Source of the DNA: an uncultured Pelagimonas sp. | GTDB taxonomy: Bacteria > Pseudomonadota > Alphaproteobacteria > Rhodobacterales > Rhodobacteraceae | Length of the DNA: 64,000 nucleotides | Reading direction: 5' to 3' | Assembly: GCA_947499735.1 (NCBI GenBank) | Contig: CANMPP010000002.1 | Span: 558,001-622,000, forward strand | Shown: in pieces, positions 1-41,248 of the stretch | How positions within the stretch are numbered: position 1 is the stretch's first letter | Layout: every line of letters starts with the position of its first letter | Translations under genes and position numbers: made by a program | The notes under the pieces: generated by a model | What the model was told of the DNA's origin: nothing | Seen by the model: the letters and a program-made list of their open reading frames with translations, nothing else | The model's database searches: none

Positions 1-936
1 CTGAAGAATAACGCCTATTTCGAAACTGGTATCGTACAGAACGAACTGCGCGCAGGTGTTGAGTTCATCCATAAAGATCGTGCGGATCAAACATCGGCAC
101 CTGGTGGTGTCGATGATCGTATCGCCGTGTTTGCTGTCAATGAAATGTCGATCGGCAACTTCACATTGACGCCTGCATTGCGCTTTGAACGTTCGCAGAT
201 CAACCCATATGACGAATCCAGCTATGACGAATACGACAATAGCGGTTGGATGGGTGGTTTGGCCCTGGCATATGAATTCGATAGCGGATTTGCCGTTTTT
301 GGGTCTTGGGCACATACCAAATCCCTGCCAATTCTCGACGATTTGGGGTCTTCAGACTACATGGAACAGCCTGAGCTGTCCGAAACCATCGAAATCGGTG
401 CATCTTATGCTGGGACAGATGTCTTTGGCGCAGGCGACAATTTGGCAATCCGTGGTAATGTCTATCAAACCAAGCTTTGGGATGTGACCAGCTATTCCGG
501 CGTTGATAGCGTTGCCGTCTTTGGTGTCGAGTTGGAAGCGTCTTACGCTGTGTCTAGCGGGTACTACGTTGAATTGAACGCGACGGCCGCGGATGGTTTC
601 GCTTGGGACAGTGACGGGGTCGTCGAAGATTTTGAGCGTGCACCAGCGAACCGTTACAACATGACGGTTGGTAAGAAATTTGATGATTTCTTGGATGTCA
701 GCTGGGAATATGTTGTCAGCACAAATCAATATGACTCATCTGGAGATGAGTTGGATGATGCAAGAGTTCATAACGTCCGCGCCACCATCCGCCCAGAAAG
801 CGGCGTTTTGGAAGGTACAGAAATTCGCTTGGGTCTCGAGAATGTCTTTGACGTTGAATACCAGACGCACTTGTCTTCGTCTTCGCGGTATCAGCCAGGT
901 CAGAATCTAAAGCTGACTGTCAGCACATTGTTCTGA
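1..936 (+). CDS. TonB-dependent receptor, C-terminal part (5' end outside window)
   Basis: The reading frame is open from the first base, so this is the last 311 residues of a larger outer-membrane receptor. The visible part is a run of alternating polar/aromatic beta-strands. It includes an 'ENVFDVEYQTH' segment, typical of the last barrel strands of TonB-dependent receptors, and it ends in Phe (LKLTVSTLF), the usual outer-membrane insertion signal. The plug domain and TonB box lie upstream of the window, so the ligand cannot be deduced; an iron complex is the usual case. A strong terminator follows 27 bp after the stop. The next gene on this strand is the DUF4856/imelysin-like gene about 3.3 kb away, beyond acnB. 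Confidence 0.9.
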   Translation: MKNNAYFETGIVQNELRAGVEFIHKDRADQTSAPGGVDDRIAVFAVNEMSIGNFTLTPALRFERSQINPYDESSYDEYDNSGWMGGLALAYEFDSGFAVFGSWAHTKSLPILDDLGSSDYMEQPELSETIEIGASYAGTDVFGAGDNLAIRGNVYQTKLWDVTSYSGVDSVAVFGVELEASYAVSSGYYVELNATAADGFAWDSDGVVEDFERAPANRYNMTVGKKFDDFLDVSWEYVVSTNQYDSSGDELDDARVHNVRATIRPESGVLEGTEIRLGLENVFDVEYQTHLSSSSRYQPGQNLKLTVSTLF

Positions 937-33193: not shown

Positions 33194-33664
33194 AAAAAGA
33201 CACTCATTAAACTGGGGGCATCTTAAAAAAACACAATAGCGCCCCGGAACATCGTTTATTTTGGTGCATATATCTTAAGAATTGCTTTTTGGAGCGGCCA
33301 TCTGATGCGCAGGCTCAACCCGCCTTGGCATCGCGCGCATCGATACAGTTTTAATAAAATCCGCGATTGAAAAGACGGGCTTAGTTGCTGCGTAAAACAC
33401 TTGTTTACAGGGTTTGTGTTTATTTTGTTTCGCATTTGTTCGGTTTTTGTTCGAAATGTTGAGCCATCCTGCCGATGTGCGAAAGACGTGCAAATGTATC
33501 GTGGATTTAGGTGTTCGCCGCACCCTATTAACCAAATTTTAACAGCGTACGCAGGGTTAAGAAGGGCAAAGCGATTATGTGGTTTTTTCGATGTGAGGCA
33601 GGAACACAGAGCGCCTCGGAGAGGTTCAAAACCTTAAGCCTTAAACGGAAAAAAGGATAATATC
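33194..33664. other. 471-bp divergent gap with a CtrA box
   Basis: Separates the GSCFA gene (minus) from the SMR-like gene (plus). The left part (33194-33480) is AT-rich with no recognisable feature. The right part holds a perfect CtrA-type box at 33528-33543 and a further TTAA half-site in GGTTAAGAAG (around 33555). AAAAAAGGA (33649-33657) is the ribosome site of the next gene. No convincing gene was found. Confidence 0.5.
33528..33543. promoter_or_regulatory. CtrA-type box upstream of the SMR-like gene
   Basis: TTAACCAAATTTTAAC is an exact TTAA-N7-TTAAC, the full CtrA consensus. It lies 121 bp upstream of the GTG start at 33665. Confidence 0.65.
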
Positions 33665-33991
33665 GTGAAGAGCTTACTGATACTTGGGGCAATCGTTCTA
33701 CTGACAATTTTGGGTGATTACGCTCTGAAATATGCCTCACTTAAGATGTCACCGTTTGCATCGACCTGGTTCGCCGGCGGCGCGTTCCTTTATGGAATGA
33801 CGGCGATTGGTTGGGTTGCTTTGATGCGCAGCCATGATCTTGCGCAAATTGCAGTGCTTTATAGCGCCGCGACGATCGTGGCATTGACTTTGGTCGGGAT
33901 CGTTTCCTTCGGCGAAATGCTTTCCGGAAAACAGGTGGTCGGTCTTTTGGCTGCTTTATTATCCGTCGTGCTCATGGAAGCCGAAGCCTAA
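33665..33991 (+). CDS. SMR/EamA-like small membrane protein
   Basis: A 108-residue hydrophobic protein with about four membrane segments: LLILGAIVLLTILGDYALKYA, STWFAGGAFLYGMTAIGWVAL, IAVLYSAATIVALTLVGIVSF and VVGLLAALLSVVLM. Size and layout fit small multidrug resistance or half-EamA transporters, but the usual SMR Glu in helix 1 is not evident (an Asp, in LGD, is there instead). It starts with GTG after AAAAAAGGA. It heads a three-gene plus-strand set with the SET and GGDEF-EAL genes. The substrate is unknown. Confidence 0.65.
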   Translation: MKSLLILGAIVLLTILGDYALKYASLKMSPFASTWFAGGAFLYGMTAIGWVALMRSHDLAQIAVLYSAATIVALTLVGIVSFGEMLSGKQVVGLLAALLSVVLMEAEA

Positions 33992-34005
33992 CTTCTAAAG
34001 ATACG

Positions 34006-34021
34006 TTAATCCACAATTAAC
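34006..34021. promoter_or_regulatory. CtrA-type box immediately upstream of the SET gene
   Basis: TTAATCCACAATTAAC is an exact TTAA-N7-TTAAC. It ends 14 bp before the ATG at 34036, so a protein bound there would cover the likely promoter or leader of the SET gene. Confidence 0.65.
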
Positions 34022-34035
34022 CAAGGACGAAGACA

Positions 34036-34428
34036 ATGCTAATTGTTAACCACAAAGTTCAGCCGAGTGAAATTCATGGTTTGGGTGTTTTTACATTGGA
34101 ACCGATCAAGGCGGGGACAGTTGTTTGGAGGTTCGATCCTATGTTTGATGTGGAACTATCTGAAGAGTTCGTAGCGAAACTGTCCCATGAGGACGCTGAA
34201 ACCGTCTTTCACCATGCGGAATACATAGCGGAAAAACGCGTATTCCGGTTAGGTAATGACGGCGACATATTCATGAACCACTGCGACTTTCCCAGTTTGC
34301 GAGACGATGGCGATGTTATGATCGCGGCGCGAGACATGAAAGCAGGTGAAGAATTGACTTGTAACTATTCCGACGTTCGCGTCGTCGGATATGAAGAGGA
34401 AACCGCATATCAAATGGCCGCCGAATGA
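34036..34428 (+). CDS. SET domain-containing protein (lysine methyltransferase-like)
   Basis: A 130-residue protein made up almost entirely of a SET domain. SAM-binding start 'IHGLGVFTLEPIKAG' (13-27), the pseudoknot strand FMNHCD (79-84) with Asn81-His82, and 'GEELTCNYSD' (104-113) with the catalytic-type Tyr111. Pre-SET and post-SET zinc cysteines are absent. It would methylate lysine on a protein partner; the target is unknown. The start is supported by AAGGACGAAGACA-ATG. Its stop overlaps the start of the c-di-GMP enzyme as ATGA, implying coupled translation. A CtrA box lies just upstream. Confidence 0.85.
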   Translation: MLIVNHKVQPSEIHGLGVFTLEPIKAGTVVWRFDPMFDVELSEEFVAKLSHEDAETVFHHAEYIAEKRVFRLGNDGDIFMNHCDFPSLRDDGDVMIAARDMKAGEELTCNYSDVRVVGYEEETAYQMAAE

Positions 34429-36617
34429 CCCGTAGCTCCCTCCCGCGCCAGATCGTCTTTCTCGTCTTTGCCGTCCTTGTGGCGGTTCTGGCAACACTTT
34501 GGATTTCGCTCTATTCTGTTCGGGAGGCAATGGACCTCGATGCCGCGGATGAATCCCAACGCCGTATGAGCGGTAGGATGAACGCACTTCAAGAAGAAGT
34601 GTCCCTGATAGCGAGTGACTATCACAATTGGACTGACGTTTTCATTAATGTGCGGGATCTGGACTATGACCGATTGGCGTCTAATTATGGAATTACTGCC
34701 GAACGTGGCGATGTTTTCCAATATGCAGAAATGTTTGACGGACCGTTTCCCAATTCTGTAGCGTGGATTGCTGGAAATGGGCTGGCTCCTCAAAACGGCT
34801 TTATTGATATTAGAACCAAAAACCAGCTGAGAAAGCGGGTGCAAGAACTGGATTTTGATGAACGGCAAACTCTAAATTTCTTCGAGTTCCGGGATCAAAA
34901 CCTCATAACGTTTAGCAGCTCATATTTGCTGCCAGAAGACGATGACATGCTCTCGGACCTACGCCCTGAGGATCAAGCCATCGCGGTTATCGGTCGGATT
35001 CTGTCCGAGGAAAGATTAAATAAGATTGCGAATGAATTCGCGATGCAGAATTTGGAAGTCGTTCCGTCACCGTCTAACAAGCCAGACGTTGTGCGTCTCT
35101 CTGTAGCGGGCGTATTTGATGAACCGGTTGCCTGGATCGAATGGCGCCCGCCTGTGCCAGGGACCGTTCTATTCTGGAAGATGGTTCCCATCATGGCAGC
35201 TGTAAGCTTGCTTTTTGTTGGGGCTTCCTACTGGGGCGCGCGGGTTCTACGAGACAAAGCATCTAGCCTGATTGCAAAAGAGGCTGTTTCTTTTGACCAA
35301 GCGCGTACAGATGTACTGACAGGGTTGCCAAACAGATTTTCACTTCGTGAGCATCTTGAAAAAGTTACTTTAGACCGAGAAAAAAATTGCGCGGTTTTAG
35401 CGTTGGATCTGGATAGATTTAAACAAATCAATGATACTGTTGGCCATGTCGGTGGCGATCTTTTCCTTGAAACTTTCGGCCGCAGACTGGCCCGCTTGAT
35501 AGATGAGAATACGTTTATTGCTCGATTGGGAGGCGATGAATTCGTATTGGTTTTTTCAGCGTTTTCGGGGCTGAATGAGATTGTTGAAGCAAAATGTTTA
35601 GAACTCGACAGCCTTTGCCAGCGTCCAATTTCTTGCAGTGGTGTTCAGTTCGATGTTTTGACCGCCAAAGGTCTGTCCTTGATGCAGGCCATTGATATGC
35701 GCGCAGAAGAACTATTGCGACGGGCTGATCGGGCTATGTACGCAGCGAAAACACGGGGTACGCAAGAGGTCGTTTCTTACGACCAAGACATGGAAAGTAA
35801 GGATCGTGAGTTCAAAGTCATTGAAACTCGTTTGAGACGCGCGCTCGCAGATAAAGACGGTTTTTATATTGATTACCAGCCCATCGTGTCGGCCGATGAT
35901 AGAGAGATCGGTACACGTTTTGAGGCACTAGCCCGTTGGTATGACAAGGATCTTGGGCAGGTAAGCCCCGAACAGTTTATCTCAGTAGCCGAGAATACTG
36001 GCCTAATTTATAAATTAGGTTGGCATTTGCTGGACCTAATTTGCAGGGACATAAAGCAGTTGGGGGGATGTCATGTTGGCGTCAACGTGTCTCCGCTACA
36101 ACTTATGACGCCTGGTTTTGGCAATCTATTTGCCGCGCGCGTTGCTGAAAACGGCGTAACTCCGGATATGATTGAAGTAGAGGTCACTGAACAGATTGCT
36201 GTTCGGGACGATGTTACCATCGCTCAGGAACTTAAGATTCTGCGAGAATATGGGTTCCGCTTGGCATTAGACGACTTTGGAACCGGATATTCGTCCATTG
36301 GTTATTTGACGCGCATGCAGTTCGATGTGTTAAAAATTGATAGATCCTTCGGCCAACTAAATGGAAAAAATGAGCAATTATTAAGAATAGTTCGCTCGAT
36401 CGTTAGCCTGGCGCATTCAATGGATTTGAAGATTGTTGCCGAGGGTATCGAAGAAGAAGAGGACGCGCAAATTTTTAACCAACTTGGGTGCGACTTTTTA
36501 CAAGGCTATCATATTGCGCGACCTTCTTCGCTTTCAGCGTTTAGTGAACCAAAGGCGGGGGCGGATGTGTTTGAGGAAACGGGGGAATTAACGGATTTCG
36601 TTCCAGCGACCTTATAA
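34425..36617 (+). CDS. CHASE4-GGDEF-EAL c-di-GMP enzyme
   Basis: A 730-residue inner-membrane signalling protein. TM1 (about residues 8-28), a periplasmic CHASE4-like sensor (about 35-240, with 'IASDYHNWTDVF'), TM2 (about 245-268), GGDEF (about 285-440) and EAL (about 460-705). The diguanylate cyclase motif RLGGDEFVLVF is intact. RLID precedes it but is not at the usual I-site spacing. The phosphodiesterase motifs FEALARW, NVSPLQL, EVTEQIA and LDDFGTGYSS are intact, so both activities are possible. It is coupled to the SET gene by a 4-bp overlap. The sensed signal is unknown. Confidence 0.95.
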   Translation: MTRSSLPRQIVFLVFAVLVAVLATLWISLYSVREAMDLDAADESQRRMSGRMNALQEEVSLIASDYHNWTDVFINVRDLDYDRLASNYGITAERGDVFQYAEMFDGPFPNSVAWIAGNGLAPQNGFIDIRTKNQLRKRVQELDFDERQTLNFFEFRDQNLITFSSSYLLPEDDDMLSDLRPEDQAIAVIGRILSEERLNKIANEFAMQNLEVVPSPSNKPDVVRLSVAGVFDEPVAWIEWRPPVPGTVLFWKMVPIMAAVSLLFVGASYWGARVLRDKASSLIAKEAVSFDQARTDVLTGLPNRFSLREHLEKVTLDREKNCAVLALDLDRFKQINDTVGHVGGDLFLETFGRRLARLIDENTFIARLGGDEFVLVFSAFSGLNEIVEAKCLELDSLCQRPISCSGVQFDVLTAKGLSLMQAIDMRAEELLRRADRAMYAAKTRGTQEVVSYDQDMESKDREFKVIETRLRRALADKDGFYIDYQPIVSADDREIGTRFEALARWYDKDLGQVSPEQFISVAENTGLIYKLGWHLLDLICRDIKQLGGCHVGVNVSPLQLMTPGFGNLFAARVAENGVTPDMIEVEVTEQIAVRDDVTIAQELKILREYGFRLALDDFGTGYSSIGYLTRMQFDVLKIDRSFGQLNGKNEQLLRIVRSIVSLAHSMDLKIVAEGIEEEEDAQIFNQLGCDFLQGYHIARPSSLSAFSEPKAGADVFEETGELTDFVPATL

Positions 36618-38090: not shown

Positions 38091-38525
38091 TCATACAGCT
38101 TTGCGTCCGCCAACCTGCAGTGGTGACAAAATAGTATCCGCATCTGCCAAAAGATCACTCAGGCGGTACTTCATCAAAACGGCCTCAAAGGCCTGTGCGG
38201 CTTCACACAAGACCCCTGCCAATTTGCAATGGCCCACCAAGAGACAGGTCGAGCAATCGACCATGTCCATCCCTTCGCCCATTGCCCGCACGACATCCCC
38301 AACCCGAATCTCTGCAGGGTCTTTTCCGATCCGAATTCCACCTGAACGCCCTCGTGTGCTTTCTATGAAACCGGCTGCGACCAATTCGCTGACGATTTTC
38401 ATCAATGAGCTGGCGGGTAAATCGTAGATGCGACGAAGCGTCTCGATATCATACATCTCGTCTTTTTTATTACTGAGGAAAATCAACACCCTAAGCGCAT
38501 AATCCGTTTTTAGGTTTAGCTTCAT
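38091..38525 (-). CDS. nsrR: Rrf2 family NO-sensing repressor NsrR
   Basis: A 144-residue Rrf2-type regulator with an N-terminal winged helix ('KTDYALRVLIFLSN', 'LPASSLMKIVSELVAAGFIESTRGRSGGI') and a cysteine cluster region C91-x2-C94-x5-C100 plus C107. Three cysteines in this area fit the [Fe-S] ligands of NsrR, though the first gap is shorter than in E. coli (C91, C96, C102). Divergence from hmp and the NsrR-like palindrome between them support repression of hmp until NO damages the cluster. Confidence 0.85.
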   Translation of the reverse strand: MKLNLKTDYALRVLIFLSNKKDEMYDIETLRRIYDLPASSLMKIVSELVAAGFIESTRGRSGGIRIGKDPAEIRVGDVVRAMGEGMDMVDCSTCLLVGHCKLAGVLCEAAQAFEAVLMKYRLSDLLADADTILSPLQVGGRKAV

Positions 38526-38595
38526 TCAAGCCCCCTTCGCTTCAGCGATTTCGCGTTTAATATTCTTTTTGCTTGAATGTTTCAATTCATCCCGC

Positions 38596-38620
38596 AATCA
38601 TTCATTTAGAATGAATCATT
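38596..38620. promoter_or_regulatory. NsrR operator in the nsrR-hmp gap
   Basis: Arms AATCATTCATT (38596-38606) and AATGAATCATT (38610-38620) around TAG are inverted with one mismatch, giving 11-bp arms and 3-bp spacing as in NsrR sites. It lies 24 bp before the hmp start. Confidence 0.7.
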
Positions 38621-38643
38621 TAGGAAGCACCAAAGGCCCCCCA

Positions 38644-39819
38644 ATGACCTCACAACTCTCTGAAGAAACCAAAGCCATTGTCACCGGGACCGTTCCTGTC
38701 CTTGAAGTCCATGGCGGCGCAATTGTCGAAACAATGTATGGGCATTTGCTGGCCGACCCGGACATGCGCAGCCTGTTCAATCAGACCCACCAAACGGGCA
38801 GTTCGCCACAGCATGCGGCGCTTGCTCAGGCGATATTGGGGTATGCAAAAAATATCAATAACTTGGGTGTTCTTGGCCCCGTCGTAGATCGCATTGTAAA
38901 CAAACATGTTGGGCTGCAAATCCAACCTGATCATTACAGTCACGTTGCAGATGCTCTGTTACGGGCAATCAGTGATGTGCTGGGTGAGGCTGCAACGGAC
39001 GATATTCTGGCGGCCTGGGGGGAAGCCTATTGGTTCCTTGCCAACCTATTGATCGACACCGAGGCGAAGATGTACCAGCAGATCGCAGATGCCCCTGGTG
39101 GTTGGTTTGGTTGGCGAAATTTTTGCATCGCAGAGATTCGAAACGAAAGCGACATTATCAAATCCTTTGTTTTGCGCCCGGAAGATGGCCAGCCCGTGGT
39201 GCGTCACAAACCCGGCCAATACCTGTCCTTCGCATTCGATTTGCCAGACACTGGTCCCGCTCGGCGGAATTATTCGATTTCTTGTGCACCCAATGATGAC
39301 CACTATCGCATTACTGTCAAACATCAGCCCGGCGGAACCGTCAGCAGCTGGTTGCATCAGGCAGCACAAACTGGCGATATCTTGAAAATCAGCGCGCCAG
39401 CCGGTGAATTTTTCCTAGAATCTAAGGAAAACGAAGTGGTCCTTTTGTCGGCCGGGGTTGGCCTGACCCCCATGATCTCTATGCTGGAAAGCCTGAAAGG
39501 CAGTGGCCGAAACACCACTTTCATACATGCAACACAGAATGGCAAAACGCATGCGATGGGCGCACATAGTCAGGCTCTGGCATCTCGATCTGTGGTGTTT
39601 TACGAGGCTCCCGAAGGTGGCGATACCTATGATGAAAGCGGTCGTATCACCGGAGGCTGGATCGTGAAGAATACCAATCTCACGCTGTCGGACTACTATA
39701 TTTGTGGCCCGTCAGACTTTATGGCTATGGCCATCAAAGCCCTGCGCGAGGCAGGCGTGAATATGGAACGCATCCACTATGAATTCTTCGGTCCAGCCGA
39801 AGATCTTGATGTGGCCTAG
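38644..39819 (+). CDS. hmp: Flavohaemoglobin / nitric oxide dioxygenase
   Basis: A 391-residue cytoplasmic enzyme that turns NO plus O2 into nitrate using NAD(P)H. An N-terminal globin (about 1-140) with proximal His in 'VNKHVGLQIQPDHY', an FAD domain (about 150-255) with 'RRNYSISCAPND', and an NAD domain (about 265-390) with 'LLSAGVGLTPMISML' and the terminal 'YEFFGP'. The frame extends upstream to 38569, but ATG 38644 gives the family N-terminus (MTSQLSEETKAIV) and keeps the NsrR site in the promoter. A strong terminator follows. Confidence 0.93.
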   Translation: MTSQLSEETKAIVTGTVPVLEVHGGAIVETMYGHLLADPDMRSLFNQTHQTGSSPQHAALAQAILGYAKNINNLGVLGPVVDRIVNKHVGLQIQPDHYSHVADALLRAISDVLGEAATDDILAAWGEAYWFLANLLIDTEAKMYQQIADAPGGWFGWRNFCIAEIRNESDIIKSFVLRPEDGQPVVRHKPGQYLSFAFDLPDTGPARRNYSISCAPNDDHYRITVKHQPGGTVSSWLHQAAQTGDILKISAPAGEFFLESKENEVVLLSAGVGLTPMISMLESLKGSGRNTTFIHATQNGKTHAMGAHSQALASRSVVFYEAPEGGDTYDESGRITGGWIVKNTNLTLSDYYICGPSDFMAMAIKALREAGVNMERIHYEFFGPAEDLDVA

Positions 39820-39825
39820 GAGCAG

Positions 39826-39853
39826 AAAGTCGGGCTTATCCAGCCCGACTTTT
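39826..39853 (+). terminator. Rho-independent terminator of hmp
   Basis: Perfect 11-bp arms AAAGTCGGGCT/AGCCCGACTTT with a 5-nt loop, ending in a short T run. It lies 6 bp after the hmp stop. Being flanked by A and T runs, it could also serve the convergent copper operon. Confidence 0.8.
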
Positions 39854-39940
39854 CACAATCTGTTCGGGATTTTCATGAACAGATCGCATTCTAGCATAGC
39901 CATCAATCGCTGCAGATCACGACGGGCTGGTCAAAGTGTG

Positions 39941-41248
39941 TTACACAACCTCTACCCATGTTTTCATCCCGCCAACTTGATGGCTCAGCATGTGGCAATG
40001 CAACATCCATTTACCAGGGTTGTCGAAGACACAAAGGATGTCTTGGGTCTCTGCTGCTTGCACAAGGCTCGTATCACGCAGATCCCCGAGGCTGCCGTCA
40101 TCCTGCACCTCGTAAAAATGGTGACCGTGCAGATGGATGCCATGTGGAAAGCTTGTGCCATTCACAAGACGGATCCGTGCGGTTTCACCACGCTGGAAAC
40201 GGGCAAAGGGCGTGGGCTGGAGATCTGATAGATCGTTGAAGGCCCAGATATTGTCACCACCATGTCTGCCGCCCATGGCACCGCCCTGCATGGTCAGGAC
40301 CAGATCTTGTGTGACCTCGCCCGGTTGCGGCACATCGTTTGGCGGTAGCGTAGGGATCGGATTCGCGCGCGGTTCTATGTCGCCATCAATCTCTATTTGG
40401 CCCAACAGATAGTTGCCCCCTTGTGTTGCCATCGCAATCTCTAGCTTGGTTTCGATATCTGCGATGACATCGACACGCTGCGCAGGGGCAAGGTCGATGG
40501 TTTCAAATTCCCGTGGTGACGCAAGCGGCATGCCATCAAGGGCAACAATTTTGCCATTTAGCCCGGACAGGTTAAGCGGAAAAACCCTATCAGTGGCTGT
40601 GTTGATCATCCGCAGACGAATACGTTCCCCTTTCTTAAGGGATGTATCAGGCAAAAAGGCCCGTGCAAAATTACCCATTCGACCCGCATGGGCCACATCA
40701 TGCGTTGTGGCGAAATCGTCTGTTAATTGTCCGGTCTGATCCAGCCGCCAATCTGCCAGAATTGCGGTGATGTCGTGATCGACATCCGGCGGGCTGGCCT
40801 CGGTCACGATCAAAGGCCCCATCAGGCCGCGTGCCACCTGTTCATGCGACAGATAATGTGAATGATACCAGAAACTGCCCGCATCCGGGGGGGCGAATTG
40901 GTAGCTGTGGGTGTTGTCTGGATCGACAATGTCCTGTGTCAGAACAGGCACCCCATCCATTGCATTTTGCAAACGGATACCATGCCAATGCACAGCTGTG
41001 CCTTCATCCAGATGGTTGCGCAACAGAACTTGTAGCTGCTGGCCTTGCTGCACCCGGATTTCTGGCCCAGGCAACCCAGCATTAAAGCCGAAAGCGCGTG
41101 TCGCAGAATATTCACCAGCAGGCAGAATCTGTGCTTCAACGGGTTCCGCAATCAGTTCGAAGTGATCCCGTGCATGTGAAGCGGTTGGAAGAATAGCTGC
41201 CGCACTTGCGGTCAAAAGAAAATCTCGCCGGTTCATGATAGGCCTCAT
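39941..41248 (-). CDS. Multicopper oxidase, Tat-exported (copper tolerance)
   Basis: A 435-residue periplasmic multicopper oxidase. The Tat signal NRRDFLLTASAAAIL is at residues 5-19. All four copper motifs are present: HWHG (about 85), WYHSH (about 127), HGIHLHGHHF (about 367-376) and HCHMLSHQVGGM (about 420-431), the last with an axial Met for the type 1 site. It is the last gene of the copper operon and its listed start overlaps the copD stop as ATGA; ATG 41236 would start directly at the Tat motif. A role in oxidising Cu(I), as CueO/CopA-type enzymes do, is inferred from the operon. Confidence 0.88.
   Translation of the reverse strand: MRPIMNRRDFLLTASAAAILPTASHARDHFELIAEPVEAQILPAGEYSATRAFGFNAGLPGPEIRVQQGQQLQVLLRNHLDEGTAVHWHGIRLQNAMDGVPVLTQDIVDPDNTHSYQFAPPDAGSFWYHSHYLSHEQVARGLMGPLIVTEASPPDVDHDITAILADWRLDQTGQLTDDFATTHDVAHAGRMGNFARAFLPDTSLKKGERIRLRMINTATDRVFPLNLSGLNGKIVALDGMPLASPREFETIDLAPAQRVDVIADIETKLEIAMATQGGNYLLGQIEIDGDIEPRANPIPTLPPNDVPQPGEVTQDLVLTMQGGAMGGRHGGDNIWAFNDLSDLQPTPFARFQRGETARIRLVNGTSFPHGIHLHGHHFYEVQDDGSLGDLRDTSLVQAAETQDILCVFDNPGKWMLHCHMLSHQVGGMKTWVEVV

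Follow-up and report, generated by a model that had tools for sequence, protein, structure and literature searches.

A conserved operon pairing a SET-domain gene with a GGDEF/EAL gene in Rhodobacteraceae, with a predicted CtrA-type site before the SET gene

Genes and features of the locus

The window analyzed here, a 64,000-nucleotide stretch (G000:C2:558001-622000) of the 3.77 Mb genome of an uncultured Pelagimonas sp. (Rhodobacteraceae; assembly GCA_947499735.1, contig CANMPP010000002.1), carries three successive + strand genes, coding for a small membrane protein that resembles small multidrug resistance (SMR) proteins, a SET-domain protein, and a membrane protein with GGDEF and EAL domains, i.e., a predicted enzyme of cyclic diguanosine monophosphate (c-di-GMP) turnover (Table 1). 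A preliminary description, made from the letters alone, had reported these genes, an ATGA overlap between the last two, and two exact TTAA-N7-TTAAC boxes on the + strand (33528-33543 and 34006-34021), the second one 14 bases before the SET start codon, and all of them were recovered at exactly these places. The second box reads GTTAA-N7-TTAAC, a palindrome, and the minus strand has a match as well, at 34005-34020.

Table 1. Coordinates of the operon genes and of the elements read or predicted around them (window positions)
Feature	Position	Strand	Details
SMR-like small membrane protein gene	33665-33991	+	108 aa, GTG start
SET-domain protein gene	34036-34428	+	130 aa; PF00856; motifs HGLGVF, FMNHCDFP, ELTCNY
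Membrane GGDEF/EAL protein gene	34425-36617	+	730 aa; GGDEF residues 294-446, EAL residues 469-700
N-terminal sensor region of the GGDEF/EAL protein	34425-35249	+	residues 1-275; no named type
ATGA stop/start overlap of the SET and GGDEF/EAL genes	34425-34428	+	read from sequence
TTAA-N7-TTAAC box	33528-33543	+	exact; starts 137 bases 5' of the SMR-like gene
GTTAA-N7-TTAAC footprint	34005-34021	+	-31 to -15 of the SET ATG; CtrA-type site, predicted
AAGGA, likely ribosome binding site of SET	34023-34027	+	read from sequence

The SET protein scored above the gathering cut-off of PF00856 (E = 6.4e-11, 43.1 bits, cut-off 22.4) and gave a profile match to the SET domain chain of KMT2A (E = 1.4e-7). 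Patterns that we take to be the SET active-site motifs (GxG-like, NHxxxP, and ELxxxY) were present in 13/13 SET proteins of the operons described below. The protein shares profile family, size, and active-site motif patterns with the small bacterial SET-domain proteins (PF00856; "SET domain-containing protein-lysine N-methyltransferase"), which published work, at title and abstract level, mainly describes as acting on host chromatin, whereas the one in the window is co-translated with a c-di-GMP enzyme. An AlphaFold model of it, built from 4 sequences (predicted local distance difference test score, pLDDT, of 42.1), was too poor and was left out of the fold question.

In the GGDEF/EAL protein both domains exceeded their cut-offs (PF00990, E = 1.8e-31; PF00563, E = 1.1e-61) and both signature motifs are intact. 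Its domain order and motifs are those of membrane GGDEF-EAL diguanylate cyclases/phosphodiesterases, from which it differs by forming a clade of its own with the other operonic enzymes, and none of the equivalog cut-offs of the 25 NCBIfam families listed was reached. All EAL patterns looked for were matched in 12/13 operonic enzymes, and the thirteenth (locus L115) deviates at three of them, yet without losing their N, E, D, and Q residues. Since these patterns are kept while the GGDEF motif is degenerate (GGSEF or GGSTF) in three of the 13 enzymes, c-di-GMP breakdown is, judging from the motifs, the likelier kept activity, and the membrane enzyme is probably for the most part a phosphodiesterase. 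The CHASE4 label that the preliminary description gave to this protein is not supported, as PF05228 gave no match in the window protein at E ≤ 5 and the relative in L023 (Paracoccus) reached a sub-threshold 20.3 bits (cut-off 26.2). No relative of solved structure was found for the sensor region at E ≤ 10, and its AlphaFold model (pLDDT 52.3, from 3 sequences) was too poor for use. The clade-specific columns of the enzyme are concentrated in this N-terminal region (43/66).

The first protein of the operon is 68% identical to its counterpart in locus L020, which is that of Rhodobacter maris JA276, a named strain in which both the complete operon and the footprint before SET are present. Its likeness to small multidrug resistance proteins (PF00893) consists of its length and a weak profile match, and its scores for Multi_Drug_Res (PF00893; 12.6 bits, cut-off 23.7) and EamA (13.3 bits, cut-off 28.2) are both under the Pfam cut-offs; the label "SMR-like" is thus kept here in the sense of a weak resemblance, and not of family membership. 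The membrane glutamate of EmrE presumably has no counterpart at that position.

Conservation of the operon

In order to delimit the relatives of the window SET protein, a close group was defined by a score of 114.3 bits or more against it, which is that of the weakest member (vs. 95.7 bits for the nearest protein outside, in genome G083). The group comprises 13 loci, a Palleronia plasmid match and contig 4 of G462 being counted as one, and forms one side of a branch in the SET tree (support 82/87). Its genes were found in 7/18 genomes of the genus of Rhodobacter maris and in 4/14 genomes of the genus of an uncultured relative, the remaining two being a copy on a Paracoccus plasmid and that of the window itself. 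A GGDEF/EAL gene lies directly 3' of the SET gene in 13/13 of these loci (four lineages, two copies on plasmids), so that the adjacency passed the conservation test which the preliminary description had set for it; the pairing is no accident. The two genes overlap in 12 loci (by 4 bases in five and by 1 base in seven), while in L023 they are annotated 38 bases apart, and an SMR-like gene precedes SET in 9/13 operons.

The enzymes tell the same story, as the 13 operonic ones form a single group against the 9 others in a tree of 22 GGDEF/EAL proteins (support 100/100), and the main groups of this tree return in that of the SET proteins, with the window joining Rhodobacter, the second genus apart, and Paracoccus outermost. 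Ratios of nonsynonymous to synonymous substitution rates (dN/dS), calculated for pairs within the two genera, did not exceed about 0.31 for SET and the enzyme (nine pairs) or for the SMR-like gene (seven pairs), and the operon genes are under purifying selection within these genera. Farther afield, relatives of the sensor region were detected in 18 genomes of a sample that covered 394 genera of the family by a single genome apiece, and SET relatives of any kind in 10/149 genomes.

Of 14 distant SET loci that were inspected, one has an adjacent, divergent GGDEF/EAL relative (L053, G363) that was not counted as support because its SET protein sits on a very long branch, and one has an adjacent SMR-like gene (L044, G083). 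In the latter (L044:5932-6695) the SET gene is followed directly by the SMR-like gene, with no GGDEF/EAL relative found in the 12 kb covered; the same genome is the only one of the best 29 SMR-like loci besides that of the window with a SET gene within about 1.5 kb on each side. In another distant locus, on a Hyphomonadaceae contig (L021:992-4440), the SET gene is followed by a transporter-like open reading frame (ORF) and then by an ORF which, on visual inspection, looks like a RimK-type ligase carrying a protease-like part at its N terminus.

No description of a SET protein paired with a c-di-GMP enzyme was found in the literature at title and abstract level, subscription papers being mostly outside the coverage, and the whole words SET, methyltransferase, and CHASE4 are absent from the searched text of a survey of alphaproteobacterial c-di-GMP genes (PMC9756655). 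At that level, the earlier remark that no such co-translated pair had been described holds, and we consider SMR-SET-GGDEF/EAL a real, conserved, and apparently undescribed operon. Genes for an Rrf2-type regulator, a globin/flavin reductase (flavohaemoglobin-like), and a multicopper oxidase lie near it in the window (38091-41248).

The site before the SET gene and its possible link to CtrA

Three TTAA-N7-TTAAC matches occur in the window, where 0.13 would be expected from 100 dinucleotide shuffles, none of which gave more than 2. Genome-wide, 36 matches were counted, at 29 places, 7 of them palindromic, but since the reversed control pattern is commoner (67 matches), the raw frequency of the box is no argument. 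It is the spacing that stands out, with N7 accounting for 36/128 of the TTAA-N(2..12)-TTAAC matches vs. 67/612 in the reversed control. Leaving the window region aside, 27 places remain, of which, by crude ORF calling (at least 100 aa), 22 lie outside ORFs, 4 overlap an ORF end by 4-9 bases, and 1 is wholly inside. A second c-di-GMP gene of this genome also has such a site nearby, as a palindromic CtrA-type box (L104:1500-1516, i.e., G000:C4:156879-156895) separates a GGDEF gene from one for a peptidoglycan transglycosylase.

Before the SET gene, GT[TA]AA-N7-TTAAC occurs at exactly -31 to -15 from the ATG in 7/13 loci, which belong to three lineages and include operons with and without the SMR-like gene; the compared pairs among the six relatives of the window have about one synonymous substitution per site or more. 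Only the window copy has TTAA in both halves, the first being TAAA in the other six. Within the 60 bases 5' of the ATG the only invariant columns are -31, -30, -28, -27, and -19 to -15, the spacer varies, and in 20000 rounds of shuffling the seven upstream stretches the motif never fell at one offset in two or more of them. Because possession of the motif is how the seven loci were selected, the weight lies on their sharing one offset and on the absence of further invariant columns. The conservation that the preliminary description looked for in its boxes is thus partial, the site before SET being kept in position in about half of the loci with an altered first half in most. The box before the SMR-like gene fares less well, for a full one recurs in just 1/8 other loci with that gene (L023, 105 bases 5'). 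Loci L110-L113 lack the footprint before SET but have in common TCTTAACCTTAACGTG about 50 bases 5' of the SMR-like gene.

CtrA is encoded in the genome (NF045991, 428.6 bits, curated cut-off 350), and one of the boxes lies 43 bases 5' of a CckA-like kinase ORF, whose best NCBIfam models are those of CckA at scores far under the cut-offs (219.2 of 1000 bits, on 485 residues). Around ctrA itself, in a 3672-base locus, only box matches with one mismatch were seen, at chance level (2 vs. 1.38 expected). According to PMC6180460, CtrA of Caulobacter crescentus activates from sites near -35 and represses from half-sites that overlap -10, and in the five Rhodobacter sphaeroides promoters studied 12-33 bases separate the start site from the ATG. 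Because the box ends 14 bases before the ATG, too close for a -35 site, a simple CtrA-activated SET promoter is unlikely; the encoded regulator and the box near the CckA-like ORF speak for the CtrA control proposed in the preliminary description, and activation of SET from this site is not supported. Repression or blocking by CtrA would fit the position better and is the simplest reading of it.

A match of the variant site TAAACG-N5-TTAAC near a ComF-like gene (G436, with a like place in G434) was considered as a further target, as comF is reportedly regulated by CtrA, going by the title of one reference, which initially made the match look supportive. It was dropped because both matches lie inside a coding region, in G436 that of a BioC-like methyltransferase, and the amino acids encoded there are conserved.

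What the operon may do

Taking these observations together, we tentatively propose, while giving it less than even chances, a conserved c-di-GMP operon in which a membrane enzyme, probably mainly a phosphodiesterase, would be tuned by a co-translated SET lysine methyltransferase under feedback from CtrA. Phosphorylated CtrA on the site before SET would block transcription into the SET and enzyme genes, and when CtrA activity falls the two proteins would be made in matched amounts. SET could then set the output of the enzyme by methylating a lysine, either in the enzyme itself or in a protein that is its direct partner. According to PMC9143464, c-di-GMP is thought to enhance the phosphatase activity of CckA; lower c-di-GMP levels would hence shift CckA towards kinase activity and restore CtrA, closing a negative feedback loop. 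Several c-di-GMP enzymes of Rhodobacter capsulatus are regulated by CtrA (PMC9143464), and c-di-GMP genes are under CtrA in Dinoroseobacter shibae of the same bacterial order as well (PMC6473078); a methyltransferase partner is not mentioned in the available text of either source, and the site in the window, in contrast to those systems, appears unsuited to activation. In its strictest form, with SET directly controlling the phosphodiesterase by methylating it within the CtrA loop, the proposal is unlikely, and lysine methylation of the c-di-GMP enzyme is offered as a reasonable hypothesis rather than as a result.

Several points count against the proposal. The operon is rare, as only the window genome has it among the 394 genera sampled by one genome each, and no such enzyme neighbors the SET protein of G083, the nearest one that does not belong to the close group. 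The GGDEF motif of the window enzyme is as intact as its EAL motif, and lysines make up just 2/23 of the clade-specific cytoplasmic columns (window residues 390 and 415, which are candidates only). The footprint, besides defining the loci in which it was compared, is absent from 6/13 (L110-L113, L115, and L023), i.e., from four close Rhodobacter relatives, one member of the second genus, and Paracoccus, a pattern for which an old site lost at least twice would fit the enzyme tree. Lastly, the variant TAAACG-N5-TTAAC has 13 matches in 9 genomes, of which 6 belong to these SET genes and 7 others are untied to CtrA, and as the distance to the ATG never varies, the element at -31 to -15 could act at the level of RNA or translation.

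An alternative that we rate equal to the proposal is one in which SET and the enzyme serve one pathway, the substrate of SET being some other protein (flagellin, pilin, a ribosomal or a CtrA-pathway protein) and their co-expression coordinating two outputs. We regard it as a serious possibility, if short of probable: linkage and overlap demand co-expression only, distant SET relatives exist without the enzyme, and clade-specific lysines are few. Against it, the close SET group always occurs with one enzyme clade (13/13), and a direct partner is therefore favored. Somewhat doubtful, in our estimate, is that the element before SET works in RNA or translation or is bound by a regulator other than CtrA. 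Its exactly constant distance to the ATG in seven loci, the TAAA half in six of them, and a place wrong for CtrA activation would agree with this, whereas the geometry, the spacing, and the TTAAC half all fit CtrA, the window genome favors N7 among the spacings while the reversed control does not, and the full site in the window is perfectly palindromic.

It is rather unlikely that the box at 33528 is the one through which CtrA activates the operon, the second box being secondary, since no box was found within 400 bases 5' of the SMR-like gene in seven Rhodobacter loci and 4/13 operons lack that gene altogether, even though a full box precedes it in both the window and L023. That a mobile cassette simply carries SET along, with no functional tie to the enzyme, is highly improbable despite its sporadic distribution (1/394 genera) and two plasmid copies, given the same gene order with overlap in 12/13 loci over deep divergence, the purifying selection on SET, and its motifs in 13/13 proteins.

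In this operon, a type of enzyme best known from animal and plant cells stands beside an enzyme for a bacterial signal molecule, and this co-translated and co-inherited neighbor, whose output is easily followed through c-di-GMP, motility, biofilm, or gene transfer, is a named candidate target of SET; the role of a bacterial SET protein inside the bacterium therefore becomes testable. If methylation tunes the enzyme, the circuit of CtrA and c-di-GMP in Rhodobacterales would gain a protein mark, and direct methylation, if true, would bring a lysine methylation mark of eukaryotic type into bacterial second-messenger control.

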